The notes under the pieces were generated by a model, which saw only the letters and a program-made list of their open reading frames with translations, was not told the DNA's origin and did no database searches. A program made the position numbers and the translations under genes. A DNA stretch of 64,000 nt from Chryseobacterium binzhouense (GTDB taxonomy: Bacteria > Bacteroidota > Bacteroidia > Flavobacteriales > Weeksellaceae): contig NZ_VKOG01000002.1 of NCBI RefSeq assembly GCF_007474545.1, forward strand, positions 186,001-250,000, read 5' to 3'. Shown here in pieces: positions 44,576 through 57,017 of the stretch. The first letter of the stretch is position 1. Every line of letters begins with the position of its first letter.

Positions 44576-44660
44576 GGAGGGTTGCCGGAGTGGTTAACGG
44601 AGCAGTTTGCTAAACTGTCGACGCGAAAGTGTCGCAAGGGTTCGAATCCCTTACCCTCCG
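44576..44660 (+). tRNA. tRNA-Ser (GCU)
   Basis: 85 nucleotides. The acceptor stem GGAGGGT pairs with ACCCTCC, discriminator G; the anticodon loop is TTGCTAA with anticodon GCT; a long variable arm is present; and the T-arm loop is TTCGAAT. It reads AGC/AGU codons. CCA is not encoded. It is transcribed with tRNA-Pro 13 bases downstream. Confidence 0.96.
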
Positions 44661-44668
44661 CATTTTAT

Positions 44669-46264
44669 TTACTCGGGGCGTAGCGTAGTCCGGTCATCGC
44701 GCCTGGTTTGGGACCAGGAGGTCGCAGGTTCGAATCCTGCCGCCCCGACTTCACGGGACAAAGTAGAAAAATCTACTTTTGTCCCGTTTTTTTTTGTATA
44801 TAACTTTTTGTTTATCAAGTTGATATGTTGTATAAAATCGTTTCGACGAGCGGTTCGAACTTGGCTTTCTGAAAAAATGATTTTTTCAGGGTAAATTGAA
44901 CCAATATCTTTTGATATCTCTGCAAGTTCTCCTTTCATTACATTTTTCTCTATCTCAATTATCTTGTTAATTCCTTGTTTTATAAGGTCTTGAATGTTAT
45001 CTGAATCATAATTAACTCTATTTAGCTTTGCTTCCAGAGCAGAAATCTTTGAACTATAGACTGATTTCATTTCTCTATAGTCTTCAGCTTCAATCTGACG
45101 AGTAGCAAGCAGGTCTCGCGTGTGAGATAATCGATCTTCATAATCTTTAATTTCTGCCAAAATCTCCTTTTTTTCTGATTGTACTTCTAGTGTTCCACCT
45201 AGGTAGTCTTTCGAAATGGTTTCTTCATAGAAAGATCTATTTTGGATTTTAGGAAGAAATTCAATTAAGTCTTCTACAATAGCCGCGTTGACTTTTTCAG
45301 CATTCACACGATGCGTACATCCTCCGATACAATGATAATATGCATAGTAACGGTTTCTACCTTTTGATTTACTTCCAGTCAATAACTTACTGCATTCAGG
45401 GCAAACCAAATATCCTCTAACCGGAAACTCATCAATGGTTTTTATCTTGGGACGATAGTTTCGTCCGCGTCCATCTAATACGTCCTGTACTTCATAGTAG
45501 AGCGATTCAGATATGATTCCCTCGTGTTGCCCATCAACGAAACAGCTTTCTTCGTCTTTGAACTGGGGAACGAATATTTTACCACAGTACAATGGATTTC
45601 GTATAACCTGCCAAAAAGCATTCTTGCTACATTTCAATCCCTTTTCTTTCGCTTGCTTAAACACCTGCTCGGTATTGAATATACCTTTCGCTATTTCTTT
45701 AAATGCGTACCTTAAAACGGAAGCGTCAGGCTCTTTCGGTGCAATAAATTTCTTTCCATTTTCGGAAGTTTTATTTTCATATGCTACAGGAGCTAATCCC
45801 ATATAGCGCCCCTCTTTCTTCGCTCGGCGCATTCCGTAAAATACATTCAATGCACGACGGTCATTTTCAACTTCAGGAGCCGCAAGATAAAATGCCAGCA
45901 TCATTTTATTCTCAGGGATAGACAAATCAAGTGGTTGTTCTATCGCCTGCGGTTCTACGCCCAACCCGCGAAGAATGTTAATCATTTGATAGGCATCACC
46001 AGCATTTCTGCTGAAACGATCCCATTTCGTGAAAAGGATAAGGTTCACATGATTCTTTTTCTTTTTCAACGTTGTGATAAGGTTTTTCCATTGCGGTCTA
46101 TTGAATGTTTTTGCTGAGTGATCTTCATAAATAACATCCCTTATCTCAATAGACTGATTAAGACAATATTTACGTAACATCTCTTCCTGATTTCTTTGGG
46201 AATAACCTTTATCAGCTTGTTCGTCTGTACTAACTCGTATGTAAATGTCTGCTATATAACCCAT
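44669..46264 (-). CDS. Large serine recombinase (ICE integrase), reading into tRNA-Pro
   Basis: 531 residues from the ATG complementary to 46262-46264. The longer frame upstream is rejected because MGYIADIYIRVSTDEQ is the natural start of the resolvase domain. Ser12 is the nucleophile with Arg10 beside it, and KWDRFSRN is the second active-site region. A recombinase domain, a zinc ribbon (CPECSKLL...) and a coiled coil follow. The last 25 residues come from the antisense of tRNA-Pro, and the dozen before them from the tRNA terminator. It is closely similar to the recombinase at 46584-48053. It probably integrates and excises the ICE. Confidence 0.88.
   Translation of the reverse strand: MGYIADIYIRVSTDEQADKGYSQRNQEEMLRKYCLNQSIEIRDVIYEDHSAKTFNRPQWKNLITTLKKKKNHVNLILFTKWDRFSRNAGDAYQMINILRGLGVEPQAIEQPLDLSIPENKMMLAFYLAAPEVENDRRALNVFYGMRRAKKEGRYMGLAPVAYENKTSENGKKFIAPKEPDASVLRYAFKEIAKGIFNTEQVFKQAKEKGLKCSKNAFWQVIRNPLYCGKIFVPQFKDEESCFVDGQHEGIISESLYYEVQDVLDGRGRNYRPKIKTIDEFPVRGYLVCPECSKLLTGSKSKGRNRYYAYYHCIGGCTHRVNAEKVNAAIVEDLIEFLPKIQNRSFYEETISKDYLGGTLEVQSEKKEILAEIKDYEDRLSHTRDLLATRQIEAEDYREMKSVYSSKISALEAKLNRVNYDSDNIQDLIKQGINKIIEIEKNVMKGELAEISKDIGSIYPEKIIFSESQVRTARRNDFIQHINLINKKLYTKKNGTKVDFSTLSREVGAAGFEPATSWSQTRRDDRTTLRPE
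44674..44748 (+). tRNA. tRNA-Pro (UGG), probable ICE attachment site
   Basis: 75 nucleotides. The acceptor CGGGGCG pairs with CGCCCCG, discriminator A; the anticodon stem is CCTGG/CCAGG with loop TTTGGGA (anticodon TGG); the T arm is GCAGGTTCGAATCCTGC. CCA is not encoded. The antisense strand of the whole tRNA encodes the last 25 residues of the adjacent serine recombinase, which points to integration of the ICE at this gene. The copy here is intact. Confidence 0.96.
44754..44795 (+). terminator. Terminator of the tRNA unit
   Basis: CGGGACAAAGTAGA pairs with TCTACTTTTGTCCCG (one bulged T) and is followed by nine T. It begins 6 bases after tRNA-Pro and also encodes part of the recombinase C-terminus on the other strand. 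Confidence 0.88.
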
Positions 46265-46583
46265 CGCTTTAAATCTAAAATTGCACATAATATGACCTAA
46301 GAGTTGTCCGATAAAAAAACTGCGTTGCAAAGTATTAAACAGTATCTTTTGTCTTAATGGCACTCGTTGGCTTTCATTGGCACTAAATTACTAAAACAAT
46401 ATCATCTAATCCCTTACTTTTCAGGAATATTGGTATAAAATAGCCGTTTTATTTAAAAATGATTTTCAGGATTGTCAGCGATAAATCTCATGCAATCCTG
46501 TACGGAATAAACCAAAAAAAAATGCCCAACTTGGGCATTTTTGATAGGTGCTTTTTCTACAGTAATTTTTATAGTTGGGATAA
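46265..46583. other. Spacer between the two recombinase genes
   Basis: The 319 bases hold the terminator of the upstream recombinase at 46513-46543, a short direct repeat TGGCACT (about 46360-46387) and the presumed promoter region of the downstream recombinase. I see no gene and no copy of the tRNA-Pro 3' end here. Confidence 0.5.
46513..46543 (-). terminator. Terminator of the second recombinase operon
   Basis: AAAATGCCCAA and TTGGGCATTTT around a single C, with a long A run on the left that is a T run on the minus strand, 40 bases past the stop. Confidence 0.85.
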
Positions 46584-48053
46584 TCAGATATAACTATAAC
46601 CTATTTGTACAGCGGTGCAGAATTTTGATTTTGAAAACGATATCCCATCGAATAGCAACTTTTCTGGAAAGATCAGGCTTAAAAATCCCCTGAAGTCTTC
46701 ACTGCTGCTTTGTTCCAAAACCTTATCGAGCTTGAGAAATTCTGCAATGTCATTTTTCAACAGCTCGTCTATATCTGGTATTCGCCCACAAACTTCCTGA
46801 AACTTTTTATTTAGCTGGTCAATTGACGTACTGTATTGGTTCTTTATCTCATGATATTCCGAAGCATCAATCTTGTCAGTGGCCAACAAGTCCCTGATAT
46901 GCGATACCCTCTTTTCTAAATCCTTCAGTTGTACAGAAATTTGTTTTTTTGAAGTTTGAATGTCCCTGGTCTGTTCTAAATAGCTCTCTACTAAAATATC
47001 TCTGTAGACTTCTAATACTTCTTTTGAAGGTACATAACGTCTTAGCTCATTTTCAAGTAATTCAGTTAATTGTTCCGCACCGATTCGCATAGAACATCCT
47101 TTATAGCAATGATAATAATTGTAATATTTGTTTCTGCCTTTGGAACGGCTTGCTGTTAATAATTTTCCACATTCTGGACAGATCAGAAATCCTCGTAGTG
47201 GGAATTCATTACGAGTTTCAATCTTTAAGCGGTATTTTCTACCTCTACCATCCAAAATGTCCTGCACTTGTTCAAATAGCTCTTCACTTAATATCGCTTC
47301 ATGTTGCCCTTGCACAAAATAACTCTCTTCATTTTTAAATGTGGGTATAAATATTTTTCCGCAATAAAGTGGATTTCTTATTACTTGCCAAAAAGCGTTC
47401 TTGCTGCATTTTAGACCTTTTTCCTTTGCTTTCTTCCAAATTTGTTCGGTGTTGTATGTTCCTTTTGCTAATTGCTCAAACGACCACCGTAAGGTGGAAG
47501 CATCTGGTTCCTTTGGTGTAATGTATTTAGTTCCGGCCTCATCAATCTTGTTCTTATAACCAACCGGAGCCAGCCCCATATACCTTCCTTCTTTCTTCGC
47601 CCGTCGCATACCATAAAATACGTTTAATGCCCGCCTGTCATTTTCAACTTCTGGAGCTGCAAGGTAAAATGCCAGCATCATTTTGTTTTCTGGTATTGAT
47701 AGATCCAATGGTTGCTCAATTGCCTGTGGTTCTACATTGAGATCTCGGAGTTGATTTATCATTTGGTATGCATCGCCTGCATTACGGCTAAAACGGTCCC
47801 ATTTGGTAAATAGAATAAGATCGATACGATTCTTGTTTTTCTTCAGATTAGCTATCAATTTTTTCCATTCAGGCCTATTAAAGGTTTTGGCAGAATGGTC
47901 TTCGTATATGACATGACGTATTTCTATGGAATGGCTTTCACAGTATTTGCGTAGCATTTCTTCCTGGTTACGTTGCGAGTAACCTTTATCGGCCTGTTCA
48001 TCTGTGCTTACACGTACATAAATGTCTGCAATGGGCTCTCTGCTTACTCTCAT
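46584..48053 (-). CDS. Large serine recombinase, paralogue
   Basis: A 489-residue recombinase close in sequence to the one next to tRNA-Pro. The resolvase domain has the nucleophile Ser16 in YVRVSTDEQADKGYSQRN and KWDRFSRNAGDAYQ; then come a recombinase domain, a zinc ribbon (CPECGKLL) and a C-terminal coiled coil ending FPEKLLFDG. It ends normally without the tRNA-derived tail. Its ATG overlaps the stop of a 52-residue gene (ATGA), so the two are translationally coupled. It may be a second integrase of the same ICE or the remnant of an element integrated in tandem. Active-site residues look intact. Confidence 0.87.
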   Translation of the reverse strand: MRVSREPIADIYVRVSTDEQADKGYSQRNQEEMLRKYCESHSIEIRHVIYEDHSAKTFNRPEWKKLIANLKKNKNRIDLILFTKWDRFSRNAGDAYQMINQLRDLNVEPQAIEQPLDLSIPENKMMLAFYLAAPEVENDRRALNVFYGMRRAKKEGRYMGLAPVGYKNKIDEAGTKYITPKEPDASTLRWSFEQLAKGTYNTEQIWKKAKEKGLKCSKNAFWQVIRNPLYCGKIFIPTFKNEESYFVQGQHEAILSEELFEQVQDILDGRGRKYRLKIETRNEFPLRGFLICPECGKLLTASRSKGRNKYYNYYHCYKGCSMRIGAEQLTELLENELRRYVPSKEVLEVYRDILVESYLEQTRDIQTSKKQISVQLKDLEKRVSHIRDLLATDKIDASEYHEIKNQYSTSIDQLNKKFQEVCGRIPDIDELLKNDIAEFLKLDKVLEQSSSEDFRGFLSLIFPEKLLFDGISFSKSKFCTAVQIGYSYI

Positions 48054-48808: not shown

Positions 48809-49198
48809 ATGAACATCACAGGAAGACTGACAAGGGATGCGGAAGTACGCACAACGTCACAGGACAAACAAGTAGTAAACTTTTCAGTAGCAACAAACGA
48901 CAGCTACAAAAACAAGCAGGGCGAACGCATAGAGCAAACAACCTATTTCGACTGCTCGTACTGGATAACTCCCAAAGTAGCCAGACTACTCACAAAAGGC
49001 ACACTGGTAGAACTGACAGGCAGAGTAAGTATAAGAGCGTGGACAGGAAATGACGGAGAACCAAAAGCAGGACTGAATTTTCATACCTCGCAAATCAAAC
49101 TGCACGGAGGTAGCAGGAAAACAGAAACCACACAGGCTACTGACAATAACAAAGGTAAGGTTAAGGCGGAGCAAACCGAAGATGACCTACCATTTTAA
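48809..49198 (+). CDS. ssb: Single-stranded DNA-binding protein
   Basis: A 129-residue SSB with an OB fold (MNITGRLTRDAEVRT, VVNFSVATNDSYK, TTYFDCSYW, LVELTGRVSIRAW) and a short acidic tail ending DDLPF, the partner-binding C-terminal tip. ICE-borne SSBs protect single-stranded DNA during conjugative transfer. It opens the plus-strand ICE operon that continues through DUF932 and the PRTRC cassette. Confidence 0.93.
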   Translation: MNITGRLTRDAEVRTTSQDKQVVNFSVATNDSYKNKQGERIEQTTYFDCSYWITPKVARLLTKGTLVELTGRVSIRAWTGNDGEPKAGLNFHTSQIKLHGGSRKTETTQATDNNKGKVKAEQTEDDLPF

Positions 49199-49243: not shown

Positions 49244-50317
49244 ATGGCACATAATATCAATTTCAACAGCAAGACAGGACGTTACTCATTCTTTAGCGTA
49301 AAGGAAAAAGCGTGGCACGGTTTGGGGAAAATCGTACAGGATTACCCAACAAGCGAACAAGCAATCAGACACGCAGGGTTAGATTATGAAGTGGTAAAAT
49401 CTCCACTCTTTACAAAAAGCTCAGGCATTATAGAAACTGCTAACGGTATCGAGATTGGAAATAGCGAACTGGAAGTACCTAATTATTTCGCCAACATACG
49501 CACCGATAACAATGCGGTTGTGGGTGTTGTGGGTAAAGACTACCATATCGTACAAAACAGAGATGCTTTTTCATTCTTTGACAGTATTGTAGGCGGTACG
49601 GACGGCATTTTATACGAAACCGCAGGAGCTTTGGGCAACGGTGAACGCATTTTTATTACAGCCAAATTGCCGAGTTATATCCGTGTGGGCAATGGCGATG
49701 ATGTGACAGAAAAATACATTTTTCTAACCACTTCGCATGACGGTAGCGGAAGTATTACAGCCGCTTTTACACCTATCCGAATTGTTTGCCAAAATACCTT
49801 AAATGCTTCTTTACGCAATATGAGCAATGTGGTACGCATCAAGCACACCGCAGGAGCAAAACAACGTTTAGACAACGCACATAAAGTTATGGGACTTGCT
49901 AACCAGTTCAGCGACCAGTTAGAAGGGATTTTCAATGAGTGGACGAAAGTCAAGGTATCAGACCAAGAAGTTAAAAAGCTAATCCAATTGGCACTTTGCC
50001 CAAATAAGGAAACATTGGAACTGCTGAAAAAAGGTGCGGAAGATGAAGTTTCCACCGTATTCAAAAACGTTGTTGAAGATGCTTTTGCTTATGCAATGAT
50101 AAGCGATACCCAACAAATGGAAACCACCAAAGGTACATTGTTCGGAGCATACAATGCGGTAACAGGCTACTATCAGAACGTAAGAAATTACAAAGACAAC
50201 GAAGCCAAATTACAGAGTATTGTAATGGGTGGTACTGCTCAACTGAAATCACAGAAAGCATTTGAATTATGTACCTCTTTTCAGAAAGTCGGTGCAGACG
50301 TTTTTCAACTCAATTAA
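49244..50317 (+). CDS. DUF932 family protein
   Basis: A 357-residue protein of the DUF932 (phage/plasmid-like TIGR03299) family, common on plasmids, phages and ICEs, of unknown activity. Family features are KEKAWHGLGKIVQDYPTSEQAI near residue 16, VVGVVGKDYHIVQNRDAF near residue 87, and FLTTSHDGSGSITAAFTPIRIVCQNTL near residue 160. It lies 45 bases after ssb. Co-occurrence with ssb suggests a role in DNA handling during transfer, which is inference. Confidence 0.88.
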   Translation: MAHNINFNSKTGRYSFFSVKEKAWHGLGKIVQDYPTSEQAIRHAGLDYEVVKSPLFTKSSGIIETANGIEIGNSELEVPNYFANIRTDNNAVVGVVGKDYHIVQNRDAFSFFDSIVGGTDGILYETAGALGNGERIFITAKLPSYIRVGNGDDVTEKYIFLTTSHDGSGSITAAFTPIRIVCQNTLNASLRNMSNVVRIKHTAGAKQRLDNAHKVMGLANQFSDQLEGIFNEWTKVKVSDQEVKKLIQLALCPNKETLELLKKGAEDEVSTVFKNVVEDAFAYAMISDTQQMETTKGTLFGAYNAVTGYYQNVRNYKDNEAKLQSIVMGGTAQLKSQKAFELCTSFQKVGADVFQLN

Positions 50318-51464: not shown

Positions 51465-52064
51465 ATGAACACAAATTTTTTCAATCAGATACAGCAGTTG
51501 GACTTTACAGGAGTATTGCAACTGAACATTTCAAAGGGAGCAGAAACCAAGCTAATCGTATCGGTTATGCTTAACAATGAACAATGCGGGGATAGTGCAA
51601 AAAACCTTATTCCGCCCCTTACATTCAATGCTACCGCACAGGAGTTTGATGAGGGATTTTTTGAACAGATAACCGCACCAGTACAGACCGTTTCGGGTTT
51701 GATGGTGGATATGGAAAAGTTCTTAAAACAAATGGAGGAAGTCAAAAAACAATCGGCAATGGAAAAGGAAAAAGCCGATAAGGAGAAGAAAGAAAAGGAA
51801 GCCAGGGACAAGAAGTATAAAGAAGCTATGGCAAAGGCAGACGAACTGGAAAAAGAGGGCAAATTCCGTGAAGCGTGGATGAAAGTGCCGAACCCTGTCG
51901 ATTTTCCCGACTATGCAGAAGCCATACGCAAACGCAAAACTTCACTATCGGACAAGTTTGCCACACCGAGCCTTTTCGGTACTACGGAAGAAGCACCCGA
52001 ACCGATACAATCGGCAGTAGTTACAGACGATTACCCGATTGATGAAGCAGGAGAAGAAGAATAA
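51465..52064 (+). CDS. PRTRC system protein E
   Basis: A 199-residue protein with a globular N-terminal part (residues 1-75, LQLNISKGAETKLIVSVMLN), a long Lys/Glu-rich coiled coil (about 85-135) and a disordered acidic tail. Layout and position directly before PRTRC-C match the protein E family of the ParB-related, ThiF-related cassette. Its function is unknown. As the first gene of the cassette it could act as scaffold or substrate of the ThiF-linked reaction, which is inference only. Confidence 0.82.
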   Translation: MNTNFFNQIQQLDFTGVLQLNISKGAETKLIVSVMLNNEQCGDSAKNLIPPLTFNATAQEFDEGFFEQITAPVQTVSGLMVDMEKFLKQMEEVKKQSAMEKEKADKEKKEKEARDKKYKEAMAKADELEKEGKFREAWMKVPNPVDFPDYAEAIRKRKTSLSDKFATPSLFGTTEEAPEPIQSAVVTDDYPIDEAGEEE

Positions 52065-52090
52065 AAGTATTAACCCTAAAATCAAATGTT

Positions 52091-52309
52091 ATGTTATTAG
52101 CAACGCAATTACAACGAGTTTTTATATTGAATGATAAGGGGCAGGAAATCAAACTCAACGACCCCGAACCGCAATGGAGTGTACAGGCAGTAATGAATTT
52201 TTATTCCAATACATACCCCATTCTGACTACCGCAAAAGTATCAGCACCACAAATCAAGGACGATACCGTACAGTACCGCTTTGAAAGTGCAATGGGAACA
52301 AAAGGTTAA
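52091..52309 (+). CDS. PRTRC system protein C, ubiquitin-like candidate
   Basis: A 72-residue protein with a predicted beta-beta-helix-beta order (LQRVFILNDKGQEIKL, WSVQAVMNFYSN, TVQYRFESAMG), compatible with a small beta-grasp fold, and a C-terminus ending Thr-Lys-Gly. A size near ubiquitin, a terminal glycine and linkage to an E1-like ThiF and an E2-like protein B fit the prokaryotic ubiquitin-like family assigned to PRTRC-C. The glycine is already exposed, so no protease is needed to mature it. Conjugation to targets has not been shown here. Confidence 0.83.
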   Translation: MLLATQLQRVFILNDKGQEIKLNDPEPQWSVQAVMNFYSNTYPILTTAKVSAPQIKDDTVQYRFESAMGTKG

Positions 52310-52333
52310 ACTAAAACAGTAAAACAATGACTT

Positions 52334-52510
52334 ATGCAACGACATACCGTATCGGGAACATTCCAAATGCCCCAAGAACCCAAGCAAAAGCAATTGCACC
52401 GTCAGTTGAGCGAGTTTGCAAACTGGATGCAACGACCGAAAGACGCAAACGAAATCCAAAAGGACAAACAGCAGTCCGTACCAGTAGCCATGTTGCCAAT
52501 GGTTTTTTAA
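52334..52510 (+). CDS. Small PRTRC-linked protein (58 residues)
   Basis: This short frame (MQRHTVSGTFQMPQEPKQKQ at the start, ending AMLPMVF) overlaps the beginning of a longer frame read in another phase. Its composition, with conserved-looking QLSEFANWMQRP, is more protein-like than the overlapping frame (TTYRIGNIPNAPRTQAK), so this is the more likely coding phase between 52334 and 52510. It lies 24 bases after the PRTRC-C gene. Function unknown. Confidence 0.55.
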   Translation: MQRHTVSGTFQMPQEPKQKQLHRQLSEFANWMQRPKDANEIQKDKQQSVPVAMLPMVF

Positions 52511-52575
52511 GGACTTCGTTTCTCCCAAGACTGAACGAAACAGAAACCGTACAGGCTTGCAGGGATAATGCTAAA

Positions 52576-53481
52576 ATGGAAAGGGATTTTTATAGTTCCC
52601 TTTCTCAATTGGCAGAGCATTACGGTATCATTCCGAAATCAACGCAATCTTACGGCTACCCCTACAATATCGCATTGGCTTTAAAAGACACCGAAGAACA
52701 GCTAAAACTTAAAATAACGGATTGGGAAGAAATCAGACTGATACAGGATAGCAAGAAAGTGTTTTTTACAAGCGAGGAAAGATATAATACTGGTGCAACC
52801 CTGTATTACATTCCTGTAATACCCTTATTTCGTTGGTTGAAAGACCCAAAGCGAAAACATACCGCTCAACTGTTTTTGTCAGTTTGCAGTTATTTGTACC
52901 ACATTGCCGACATTCCATACTACAGACAGGAAAGTAGTTACCTGTACTGGATGTATGAAATGCACAAAGATTGGGTAACCGAAGATGATTACGGAGAAGA
53001 TACAGAAGCCTACCTCAGCGAATTTGCACAAGCAGAATGGATTGGCGACCGTATGGAACAGAAAATTTACAACGAAGCTAATTTAAGGCTCTTTAAAGAA
53101 CGGTTAAACCGTTTTAAATCGAAAGATAAGATTGATGCTGATTGCTTTAAAGTAGCACAGGAAGCCTATGCCATTTATCAGCAGTACCCTAATACAAACG
53201 TATTCCGCAATGCCCGACCAAATGGCGAAGCCAATGAAGAAGACATGGAAAATATCATTTCAATGGAGAAGTATGTTTCATTCTGTGCAGACGGTACAGG
53301 CTGGCTTATGGATAATGTGGTAGAATCTGTAAATAGCGAATTACAGGAATACGGACAGATGGAAGAACCCATTATTATCAAACGGTTTGACGGAAGTGAT
53401 ATAACCGCCAATACTTTGGATTTTGAAAACCGTTTGCTACCGATGATAAATGAATTGACATACATTTTGAATAATTTTTAA
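52576..53481 (+). CDS. PRTRC system protein F
   Basis: About 300 residues from the ATG at 52576 (MERDFYSSLSQLAEHYGI). The same frame is open back to an ATG at 52327, but the part before about 52510 probably belongs to the small gene in another phase. The segment 52511-52575 could be coding if a non-ATG start is used, so the start is uncertain. The protein is mainly helical, with LYYIPVIPLFRWL and SVCSYLYHIADIPYYRQESSYLYWMYEM. No catalytic motif is recognised. Its order between C and B matches PRTRC-F of Bacteroidota elements. Confidence 0.75.
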   Translation: MERDFYSSLSQLAEHYGIIPKSTQSYGYPYNIALALKDTEEQLKLKITDWEEIRLIQDSKKVFFTSEERYNTGATLYYIPVIPLFRWLKDPKRKHTAQLFLSVCSYLYHIADIPYYRQESSYLYWMYEMHKDWVTEDDYGEDTEAYLSEFAQAEWIGDRMEQKIYNEANLRLFKERLNRFKSKDKIDADCFKVAQEAYAIYQQYPNTNVFRNARPNGEANEEDMENIISMEKYVSFCADGTGWLMDNVVESVNSELQEYGQMEEPIIIKRFDGSDITANTLDFENRLLPMINELTYILNNF

Positions 53482-53491
53482 AAACAAAGCT

Positions 53492-54205
53492 ATGAACGAT
53501 ATAACACAGGATTTCGGAACATTGTACTATCCAAAATCGGCATTGGTATTTTATCAGACTACCGGAAAGGGTAACGATACTTATGTAGAGCATTTTGATA
53601 TGGATAAAAACGGTATGCCTATTAATGCACACCCTTTGACCGTAAAGGAAGCTAACCAACTGGCTAAGGCTTTGAAGACCGCCAAAGAGGAAAAAGAACC
53701 GTTATTGAAACCGCAGGGAATATTAAGCAATGAGGTTTTATACTTTGAGCCTAATGCAAACAAATTAGTATGGTTTACCAAAGCCACACAAAGGGAAATG
53801 TATTTTGTAGAAAGTCTGGGCATACTTAAAGGCAAAGCCAATGTACCGCCCATGTTGTGGGTAGCAAACCGAAACGGTTTAGCCGTTTTTGCCTTACCAA
53901 ATAGCAGAAGACCTACAATAAAAACAAAGCTGTACAATGCTCCTTTTTTTAACGTGTATGAGGACGGCAATGTATGTATGGGTACAGTTGATGTACGCAT
54001 AAAGAAAACCGCTTCATTGGAAGAATTTATAAACAAATGGGAAGGTTTTTTCTTTAACAGCTATTTCAGTCATTTAATGCACGGTCATAACCCGATAAAT
54101 GGAAATTGCGTAAGCCTTTGGGAAAATTTAATTGCCACAGGTGAAGCCTTTCCAATGGAAGTATTGACAAAAAATAATCTAACCTTAAAAGACATATTGC
54201 GATGA
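53492..54205 (+). CDS. PRTRC system protein B, E2-like candidate
   Basis: A 237-residue protein of the PRTRC-B (Prok-E2_D) family, proposed to have a ubiquitin-conjugating-enzyme fold. The stretch PFFNVYEDGNVCMGTV at residues 151-166 closely resembles the E2 active site, where an HPN motif precedes the catalytic Cys (pattern N-V-Y-x-D-G-x-V/I-C); Cys162 would be the carrier residue. The preceding VPPMLWVANRNGLAVFALP matches an E2 strand pair. Its stop overlaps the ThiF start (ATGA). Thioester transfer is a prediction. Confidence 0.85.
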   Translation: MNDITQDFGTLYYPKSALVFYQTTGKGNDTYVEHFDMDKNGMPINAHPLTVKEANQLAKALKTAKEEKEPLLKPQGILSNEVLYFEPNANKLVWFTKATQREMYFVESLGILKGKANVPPMLWVANRNGLAVFALPNSRRPTIKTKLYNAPFFNVYEDGNVCMGTVDVRIKKTASLEEFINKWEGFFFNSYFSHLMHGHNPINGNCVSLWENLIATGEAFPMEVLTKNNLTLKDILR

Positions 54206-55011
54206 ACAACGAAAAAATAACAGTCCATTTTACGGACAATAGTTTGATAAACGCTACCAATCCCATATCCATAAACCTTATCGGTGCAGGTGGCACAGGC
54301 TCAAAGGTTTTGACCGCCTTAATGGAAATGAACCACAGTTTAATAGCTTTAGGACACGCAGGATTGTCCGTTCGTCTTTGGGATGATGATGTTATCACAG
54401 AAGCAAATTTGGGTAGACAGCGTTTTGCAGAGTGTGAGGTTGGGCTATATAAATCCGTTGCTCTCATCAACCGAGCCAACCGCTTTACAGGTACAAACTG
54501 GAAAGCCGAAACGCAAAGGTTTGAAAAGGATAGTTTCGGAAAAGTTCCCGAAAACGCACTGGCTACAATCTTTATTACCTGTGTAGATAGTGTAAAAGCA
54601 AGATTTGGTATTGCCGAAATATTGAAAGCTTTGGACAACGGAAAGCATTACCACCATAAACCAAAGTATTGGTTGGATTATGGAAACAGCCAACATACTG
54701 GACAAGTATTGTTATCAACCATAGGAGATATAAAACAACCCAATTCCGACAGATACGAAACCGTTTCTAATCTGCCAATGGTTACAGAAGAATTTGGCGA
54801 TTTGCTGAAGCAGTCCGAACAGCAAGACGACACACCAAGTTGCAGTTTAGCTGAAGCATTGGAAAAACAGGATTTGTATATCAATTCGTCATTGGCTCAA
54901 ATGGGCAGTTCTTTGTTATGGGGTTTATTTCGTAATGGATTGACGGAATATAGAGGCTTTTTTGTCAATCTGAAAGATTTTCGCTCACAACCAATATTAG
55001 TCGCCCGATAG
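54202..55011 (+). CDS. PRTRC system ThiF-family E1-like enzyme
   Basis: A 269-residue ThiF/MoeB/E1-type adenylating enzyme. The ATP motif GAGGTGS (28-34), the acidic WDDDVITEANLGRQRF (60-75, with Asp, Asn and Arg of the adenylation site) and CVDSVKAR (127-134) are kept. Cys214 in TPSCSLAEA is a candidate for the thioester Cys. It would activate the C-terminal glycine of PRTRC-C and pass it to Cys162 of PRTRC-B. No zinc-binding CxxC pair is evident. It is the last gene of the cassette and is followed by two hairpins. Confidence 0.9.
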   Translation: MNNEKITVHFTDNSLINATNPISINLIGAGGTGSKVLTALMEMNHSLIALGHAGLSVRLWDDDVITEANLGRQRFAECEVGLYKSVALINRANRFTGTNWKAETQRFEKDSFGKVPENALATIFITCVDSVKARFGIAEILKALDNGKHYHHKPKYWLDYGNSQHTGQVLLSTIGDIKQPNSDRYETVSNLPMVTEEFGDLLKQSEQQDDTPSCSLAEALEKQDLYINSSLAQMGSSLLWGLFRNGLTEYRGFFVNLKDFRSQPILVAR

Positions 55012-55481: not shown

Positions 55482-57017
55482 ATGGAGAAAATTATCAATT
55501 TGTTTGATTTCAAACAGAAAATTAATTACAAGAATGAAATTCTTGCAGGTCTTGCAGTTGCCATGACCATGATACCAGAGTCTTTATCGTTTGCTATTTT
55601 AGCGGGGCTATCGCCATTGACAGGTCTTTATGCAGCCTTTTTAATGGGTATTGTAACCGCAATTCTAGGGGGCAGACCGGGAATGGTTTCCGGGGGCGCC
55701 GGAGCGACTGTTGTTGTACTTATTGCACTGGCAGCATCACATGGGGTGGAATATCTTTTTGCTGCCGTTATAATGGCAGGTCTTATGCAATTTTTAGTAG
55801 GAATTTTTAAACTTGGTAAATTTGTACGCCTGATCCCGCAACCGGTAATGTACGGTTTTTTAAATGGTCTTGCAGTAATCATTTTCATGGCACAGGTAGC
55901 ACAATTTAAAGAAGTAGAAAACGGAATAGAAGGTTGGATGCAGGGTTCTGCCCTCTATTTAATGGCGGGATTGACGTTGTTAACCATAGCAATTGTATTT
56001 ATATTACCAAAATTTACAAAGGCGGTTCCTGCATCGTTAGTAGCGATAATTGTTGTATTCGGTATCGTATATTTTTTCGGTATTGATACTAAAAAAGTAA
56101 TTGATATAGCTTCAGTAGGTGGTTCACTGCCATCATTTCATATTCCAGGAATACCGTTTAATCTGGAAACCCTGAAAATTATTTTCCCCTACGCCTTAGT
56201 AATGGCAGGTGTTGGGTTGATTGAAAGTCTGTTAACGCTTAATATGGTTGATGAAATAACCAGCACAAAAGGACAATCTAACCGTGAGGCTGCCGCACAG
56301 GGCATAGCAAATATCACCAACGGTTTCTTCGGAGGAATGGGTGGATGTGCAATGGTTGCTCAGACTTTAGTGAATATCGGAGCCGGTGGAAGAGCCAGAC
56401 TTTCTGCAATAATTGCCTCAATTGCAATCTTATTGATCATTCTGGTTGCAGGTCCTGTAATAGAACAAATTCCAATGGCGGCATTAGTCGGGGTGATGAT
56501 GATGGTAGCTATAGGCACATTTGAGTGGGTTAGCTTTCGAATTATTAATAAAATGCCTCGACACGACATTTTTATTGGTATGCTGGTAGCAGTTATAACT
56601 GTACTATTACACAATTTAGCTTTAGCCGTTTTGATAGGTGTAGTTATTTCAGCTCTTGTATTTGCCTGGGAAAGTGCCAAACGAATACGTGCAAGAAAGT
56701 ATGTAGATGAAGATGGTGTAAAGCATTACGAAATTTTTGGACCGCTGTTCTTTGGTTCTACTGCCGCATTTATTGAAAAATTTGACGTACTAAATGACCC
56801 GAATGAAGTTGTAATTGATTTTAAGGAAAGTAAAGTAGTTGATATGTCTGCTATTGAAGCTTTAAATAAAATTACGGAGAAGTATCACAAGGAAGGTAAA
56901 AAACTACATTTACGACATTTAAGCCAAGATTGCAGACAGTTACTGAAAAATGCTGAAACAGTTATAGATGTGAATATTATCGAAGATCCTACCTACAAAG
57001 TAATGACTAATAAGTAA
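55482..57017 (+). CDS. SulP family anion transporter with STAS domain
   Basis: A 511-residue inner-membrane transporter with about ten to twelve helices, starting with a short cytoplasmic helix (MEKIINLFDFKQKINYKNEI) and the SulP signature region GLAVAMTMIPESLSFAILAGL. A cytoplasmic STAS domain fills about residues 410-505 (VVIDFKESKVVDMSAIEALNK). SulP proteins move sulfate, bicarbonate or other anions with sodium or protons. The substrate is not decided; no carbonic anhydrase or sulfate gene is adjacent. As ICE cargo it has its own promoter and terminator. Confidence 0.92.
   Translation: MEKIINLFDFKQKINYKNEILAGLAVAMTMIPESLSFAILAGLSPLTGLYAAFLMGIVTAILGGRPGMVSGGAGATVVVLIALAASHGVEYLFAAVIMAGLMQFLVGIFKLGKFVRLIPQPVMYGFLNGLAVIIFMAQVAQFKEVENGIEGWMQGSALYLMAGLTLLTIAIVFILPKFTKAVPASLVAIIVVFGIVYFFGIDTKKVIDIASVGGSLPSFHIPGIPFNLETLKIIFPYALVMAGVGLIESLLTLNMVDEITSTKGQSNREAAAQGIANITNGFFGGMGGCAMVAQTLVNIGAGGRARLSAIIASIAILLIILVAGPVIEQIPMAALVGVMMMVAIGTFEWVSFRIINKMPRHDIFIGMLVAVITVLLHNLALAVLIGVVISALVFAWESAKRIRARKYVDEDGVKHYEIFGPLFFGSTAAFIEKFDVLNDPNEVVIDFKESKVVDMSAIEALNKITEKYHKEGKKLHLRHLSQDCRQLLKNAETVIDVNIIEDPTYKVMTNK

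Follow-up and report, generated by a model that had tools for sequence, protein, structure and literature searches.

The window analysed here is a 64,000-nucleotide stretch of the Chryseobacterium binzhouense genome (contig NZ_VKOG01000002.1, positions 186,001 to 250,000), in which positions 51465-55011 are taken up by a PRTRC cassette, with E, C, F, B and ThiF following one another in this order on one strand. The first cassette gene encodes PRTRC protein E (51465-52064, +, 199 amino acids), which matches PRTRC_E in Pfam (PF19556, 253 bits) and in NCBIfam (TIGR03741, 43.7 bits versus a cut-off of 37.95). It is followed by PRTRC protein C, the putative ubiquitin-like modifier (52091-52309, +, 72 amino acids), by the fast-evolving protein F (52327-53481, +, 384 amino acids), by the E2-like PRTRC protein B (53492-54205, +, 237 amino acids), and by the E1-like PRTRC ThiF (54202-55011, +, 269 amino acids). 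The initial annotation, made from the letters of the sequence, had described these open reading frames (ORFs) as a ubiquitin-like module of modifier, E2-like and E1-like proteins encoded together with E and F, and had proposed the Prok_Ub and Prok-E2_D families for C and B. All five ORFs are present, Pfam and NCBIfam together name E, C, B and ThiF, and both proposed families were recovered far over their Pfam cut-off of 25 bits (Prok_Ub, PF14454, 100.2 bits for C; Prok-E2_D, 120.6 bits for B). In NCBIfam, C matches PRTRC_C (TIGR03738, 66.0 bits versus 45.95) and B reaches 127.0 bits with PRTRC_B (TIGR03737), about 4 bits under the cut-off of 131.45. The claimed ThiF-type E1-like enzyme scores 246 bits with PRTRC_ThiF (TIGR03736, cut-off 144.75) and shows a single match to Pfam ThiF (39 bits). 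For F the earlier description holds in part: the ORF exists and has homologs in 99 of 103 Bacteroidota loci; however, it matches no family in Pfam or NCBIfam and owes its name to its position in the gene order and to those homologs.

Relatives of the cassette were sought through ThiF. PRTRC ThiF scored over the cut-off in 16 of 395 genomes of the phylum and in none of 14 control genomes, and matches were found in 373 plasmid records (E<=1e-8) and in nine phage records (E<=0.001), one of which spans most of the query. Loci were pooled from genome stretches, annotated plasmids, one phage, a named-genome scan and three viral-contig scans (at most 80 loci from each scan), and the resulting 362 loci were reduced to 272 non-redundant ones by removing duplicates in the last 200 amino acids of ThiF, with 32 short loci (L001-L032) dropped before counting; the sample is weighted toward Bacteroidota and viral contigs, the source of most loci. 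Among the 272 loci, B was detected in 267, C in 253, E in 242, F in 203, the JAB protein (protein A) in 90, ParB in 51, and dnaN, the sliding clamp gene, in 39, the F and ParB profiles being loose beyond the kin of their seeds. Annotated plasmids from other phyla, for example in Cupriavidus and Pelobacter, show the order E-C-F-B-(A)-ThiF again, so the arrangement is not due to chance. The cassette in the window is real and conserved, looks complete, and represents a JAB-less form of a ubiquitin-like system that had been predicted in bacteria.

Viral members of the sample include Burkholderia phage BgVeeders33 (OK665841.1), described as a complete genome; its PRTRC-type cassette includes JAB and a C protein with a tail, and all the cassette genes except ThiF are annotated as hypothetical. 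Among 106 neighbor proteins of ten viral contigs (L065, L066, L068, L073, L080, L081, L098, L100, L131 and L138), terminase, integrase, DnaB, RusA-like and Rad52-like families were found, so that in some of these contigs, at least, genes for phage replication lie close to the cassette.

The reading of such cassettes as E1/E2/Ubl (ubiquitin-like protein) systems is not new; it was predicted in 2006 for operon type 6d (Iyer et al., 2006; PMC1779556), and what is new here is the comparison across loci. That paper describes type 6d as a Ubl with a conserved C-terminal glycine, a JAB protein with an N-terminal domain, an E1, an E2-like protein with a conserved cysteine and a downstream histidine, and a helical protein, and lists a Bacteroides (PMC1779556). 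We equate type 6d with PRTRC by matching the two descriptions. The cassette in the window shares with type 6d the small Ubl with its conserved C-terminal glycine, the helical protein, the E2-like Cys/His and the E1-like protein, and differs from it in lacking JAB and ParB, in its tailless C, in the ssb gene upstream, and in a 58-residue ORF nested in F. No report of an activity or target of this operon type was found in the literature searched, a search that most subscription papers fall outside, and no title linking PRTRC to the ubiquitin-like literature on integrative and conjugative elements (ICEs) or clamps appeared among the matches listed, which is no proof of absence.

Protein C was claimed to have 72 residues and a free C-terminal glycine, and the 72-codon ORF indeed ends in GTKG. 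The initial annotation had made its reading depend on a beta-grasp fold of C and on conservation of the terminal glycine among homologs. The glycine is conserved in 250 of 253 loci, preceded by lysine in 240 and by glycine in none. The structural model (mean predicted local distance difference test score, pLDDT, 85.4) gives the elements E8-15, E18-23, H31-39, H43-47, E48-50, E54-56 and E59-66 and thereby predicts for C the strand-strand-helix-strand order of a beta-grasp; the last three residues fall under 50 in a floppy GTKG end.

The residues expected to be catalytic in the two putative enzymes are nearly invariant, so that each condition of the initial annotation that could be computed came out in its favor. 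In ThiF, Gly28, Asp61, Asn69, Arg72 and Lys84 are found in 272/272 loci, and Gln73, Asp129 and Cys214 in 271/272 each, L184 being gapped at Asp129 and Cys214. The E2-like motif claimed for B is likewise retained: Cys162 and Asn154 occur in 267/267 loci and His194 in 253/267. The pattern N-x7-C-x-G is present in 231 of 267 B sequences, with the Asn-Cys spacing of the HPN (His-Pro-Asn)...C block of UBC9 and UBE2D2, and a profile alignment to these two proteins sets the Asn and Cys of B on theirs (P 0.00044, probability 34%, 22 columns). Against the PDB, neither C nor B gave a significant match by sequence profile, and the best solved-structure matches of the ThiF profile were the E1 enzymes UBA6, NEDD8 E1 and UBA5.

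Several observations limit the reading of these proteins as a conjugation relay. C shows no sequence-level match to ubiquitin, and the structural comparison of B did return E2 entries in the top rows, in favor of the relay, though at low Z, a weak match. Escherichia coli ThiF, together with Cap2, comes close behind the E1 enzymes among the structure matches of ThiF, and a SulP- and STAS-containing gene of the sulfate permease family (55482-57017, +) lies 0.5 kb past the cassette. The last two also speak for a sulfur-carrier pathway, in which this ThiF-family enzyme would activate C and C would hold a thiocarboxylate for tRNA, cofactor or DNA modification, as ThiS and MoaD do; these carriers, like C, are short and end in a free glycine. 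We nevertheless regard a sulfur carrier as unlikely, given that ThiF is accompanied by an E2-like protein with invariant Cys and Asn, that its very best profile matches are protein-conjugation E1s, that Pfam scans of 30 window proteins revealed no rhodanese, that the permease gene is no conserved neighbor (fewer than 5 of 103 Bacteroidota loci), and that precursor tails and JAB proteins in sister cassettes, described below, fit conjugation.

A decayed or purely structural gene set, kept by hitchhiking and devoid of conjugation activity, would agree with the lack of a phenotype in the literature searched and with the extra PRTRC ThiF copy in genome G277 (C1:1280488-1281267), likely a pseudogene, which reads through three stops. 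This explanation is very improbable in view of the retention of the Cys and Asn of B in relatives down to 19% identity and of the ThiF adenylation residues in 271-272 of 272 loci.

The absence of a JAB-type protease at 48.7-55.0 kb, claimed by the initial annotation, was corroborated by Pfam and NCBIfam scans, which found no JAB family in ten proteins at 48.8-55.0 kb; in the whole host genome, Prok-JAB gave no match at E<=0.001. Such absence is common, with protein A missing from 182 of 272 loci, the window locus included. Where a JAB gene lies between B and ThiF, C often extends past the glycine, by up to 100 residues. All six JAB proteins checked contain Prok-JAB together with DUF2016, which we equate with the JAB-N domain of Iyer et al. 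Two other candidates were discarded: a 433-residue Vibrio ORF (L059) considered as protein A has no Pfam match and was left out of the final seeds, and an apparent JAB-E1 fusion (L133) proved to be an ORF-start artefact, the long ORF matching ThiF only.

The C-terminal tail and the JAB gene are associated in one direction. Among the loci with C, 71 have JAB and a tail, 16 have JAB and a tailless C, 166 have neither, and none combines a tail with the absence of JAB. Nine of the 71 tails are just 1-7 residues long; no Pfam domain was found in the six tails tested, and there is little consensus among the 61 tails of at least 40 residues. On a ThiF tree of 132 rows (reduced from 253 at 80% identity within one state, with cores under 180 residues removed), JAB presence changes four times and the tail seven times. 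When the tail was simulated at the fitted rates, with the root fixed as tailless and on one quick tree, all tails fell within JAB-bearing cassettes in 9 of 6261 sets (12-50 tailed tips); the independent-pairs test had just 2-5 pairs on the starred branches, too small a number to reach 0.05. The one-way association makes sense because a tail in the absence of a protease would leave the modifier dead, whereas a protease could still remove the mark where no tail exists. Supply of JAB from elsewhere in the cell is no general answer for the JAB-less form, since 11 of 16 PRTRC-bearing Bacteroidota genomes, the host included, lack Prok-JAB at E<=0.001 and 13 lack any match above the cut-off. As tails occur only where the JAB gene is present, JAB-less cassettes such as this one would make a pre-exposed modifier, in agreement with the earlier statement that the glycine is exposed without the help of a JAB protease. 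This association, new in the present comparison, would predict which cassettes need a protease and which can do without one.

Taken together, the cassette probably encodes a ubiquitin-like conjugation relay of C, ThiF and B in a JAB-less form with a free glycine, a reading to which we assign a probability of about 65%. We infer each of its chemical steps from the observed gene content, residue conservation and tail-JAB link and from the predicted folds. C would be translated with its glycine already free, so that the relay could start with no protease. ThiF would adenylate the C-terminal Gly72 of C and take C as a thioester on Cys214, from which it would be passed to Cys162 of B, where the invariant Asn154 would occupy the position of the catalytic Asn of the E2 HPN motif. 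In the last step, B would attach Gly72 of C to a target through one of the target's amines. As no JAB was found in the genome, removal of the mark by such an enzyme is improbable.

Bacterial relays of this type are known from other contexts. The Bil system (BilABCD) also consists of a Ubl, an E1 and an E2, and has a JAB protein that frees the reactive glycine; BilA carries a pair of Ubl domains and BilD a pair of adenylation domains (PMC11354881). By comparison, the cassette in the window encodes a single 72-residue Ubl and a 269-residue E1 with one ThiF match, lacks JAB, and stands in the DNA-processing context of a mobile element. Type II CBASS, whose Cap2 is among the structure matches of ThiF, and Bub share the bacterial E1-E2 relay; in the window, by contrast with type II CBASS, E1 and E2 are separate proteins, and neither Pfam nor PADLOC revealed a CD-NTase or a known effector among the proteins encoded at 48.8-55.0 kb. 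Since the known E1-E2-Ubl systems of bacteria are defense or stress systems (PMC10097602, PMC13373217), the cassette might be an anti-phage or anti-plasmid defense island of the Bil, CBASS or Bub kind, carried as cargo and modifying virion or effector proteins. One JAB-less plasmid cassette (L227, Pseudomonas nitroreducens) is accompanied downstream by a Shedu nuclease and Abi genes. However, PADLOC matches are weak (for ThiF, E1-E2 with 18.4 bits at best; for E, JetA with 16 bits), no known effector family is among the scanned proteins, phages carry the cassette too (the complete Burkholderia phage and contigs with terminase genes), and the frequent neighbors are replication and partition genes. 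We therefore consider a defense island improbable, more so than a sulfur carrier.

The neighboring genes offer a pointer to the target of the proposed relay. In Bacteroidota, 82 of 93 loci have a gene for a single-stranded DNA-binding protein (SSB) upstream of E and in the same orientation, and the SSB ends in a DDLPF tip in 69 of those 82. On several plasmids, ParB immediately precedes E; the ParB profile matched neither the window locus nor any of the 93 Bacteroidota loci. In viral contigs, dnaN occurs in 30 of 152. Immediate adjacency, with dnaN on the strand of E and no more than 120 bp upstream of it, was seen in 19 of 57 JAB-less versus 0 of 77 JAB-bearing viral cassettes. In plasmid and phage records it was seen in 2 of 7 cassettes with JAB and in 0 of 10 without, and in Bacteroidota in 0 of 85 loci; these counts cover loci that have E and at least 1.3 kb before it (six were too short). 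On the tree (119 rows, 19 with this adjacency), it changes nine times. A tblastn search with one linked DnaN matched 14 of 152 PRTRC viral loci (1.98 Mb, at least 55 bits), and the same query at roughly like sensitivity matched 93 of 50,697 phage records (2.3 Gb, E<=1e-5). A different DNA-bound protein thus appears to head the cassette in part of each kind of element, which is a pointer to a target class and no more. The linkage to dnaN and ssb is, besides the tail-JAB link and the Lys-Gly end, the new part of the comparison.

Eukaryotic PCNA and RPA are modified by ubiquitin and SUMO, a case in which a Ubl relay is coupled to a sliding clamp or to an SSB; for PRTRC, the connection is one of gene order alone, and the comparison is an analogy. 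We tentatively suggest, as a possible but doubtful reading, that PRTRC is a bacterial counterpart of this modification. On ICEs, phages and plasmids, the relay would mark a replication or partition protein bound to the element's own DNA, of the clamp, SSB or ParB class, and E and F might serve as adaptors; lineages that lost JAB, or never had it, would use a tailless modifier and leave a mark with no JAB remover. The element's DNA-bound proteins are the leading hypothesis for the target, but this assignment is less certain than the relay itself, and several points limit it. In the stretch compared, SSB, DnaN and ParB are all missing from 86 of the 152 viral loci, from 9 of the 27 plasmid or phage loci and from 11 of the 93 in Bacteroidota. 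Gene order can also reflect shared timing. A conserved acceptor lysine in the linked DnaN was considered and rejected, as 36 aligned DnaNs contain no column with Lys in 60% or any single residue in 90% of the sequences, which speaks against one fixed acceptor.

Trypsin would cut after the lysine of GTKG, and the remnant of C on a conjugate would, by arithmetic, be one glycine (C2H3NO, 57.02 Da). This is also the composition of the carbamidomethyl group left by iodoacetamide, so routine mass searches would not separate the two, which suggests why routine proteomics would miss the conjugates and might account for their having gone unseen. The cassette comparison makes the question testable, in that it indicates which cassettes need a protease, which residues to change, and, from gene order, which candidate targets to consider. 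Should the target prove to be a sliding clamp or an SSB, a form of control known from eukaryotes would have a counterpart evolved by mobile elements.

The initial annotation also listed a 58-residue protein. The ORF exists (52334-52510, +) and is conserved in the 86 loci compared (8 of 94 were left out), with lengths of 57-61 amino acids; it was found, however, to be nested entirely within the 5' end of F, read in a different frame. Its mean pairwise identity across these loci is 61%, compared with 42% in the corresponding stretch of the F frame, and it has no Pfam match. A frameshift from this ORF into F was rejected, since the junction heptamer TTTTTTA occurs in only 11 of 86 loci, and dual coding is therefore favored as the likely explanation of the overlap.

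Upstream of the cassette, the window encodes the SSB (48809-49198, +, PF00436, 67 bits) and a DUF932/TIGR03299 phage-plasmid-like protein (49244-50317, +, 230 bits), whose homolog is present in 76 of 103 Bacteroidota loci. The sulfate permease gene and an IS110-type transposase gene lie a short way downstream of ThiF. The ICE context proposed at the outset agrees with the wider window: TraQ and TraO are encoded at 62.7-63.7 kb, and two serine recombinases at 44669-48053 lie next to tRNA-Ser and tRNA-Pro genes, which together support a conjugative element. By its gene content, the region fits such an element with its left end near 44.7 kb. The tRNA-Ser/tRNA-Pro pair (44576-44749) abuts the 3' end of the first recombinase gene (44669-46363), and this junction is a possible attachment site; one further copy of the tRNA-Pro end lies elsewhere in the genome, on contig C11. 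A second, diverged cassette lies 217 kb away on the same contig, with C 76% and ThiF 70% identical to their counterparts in the window.

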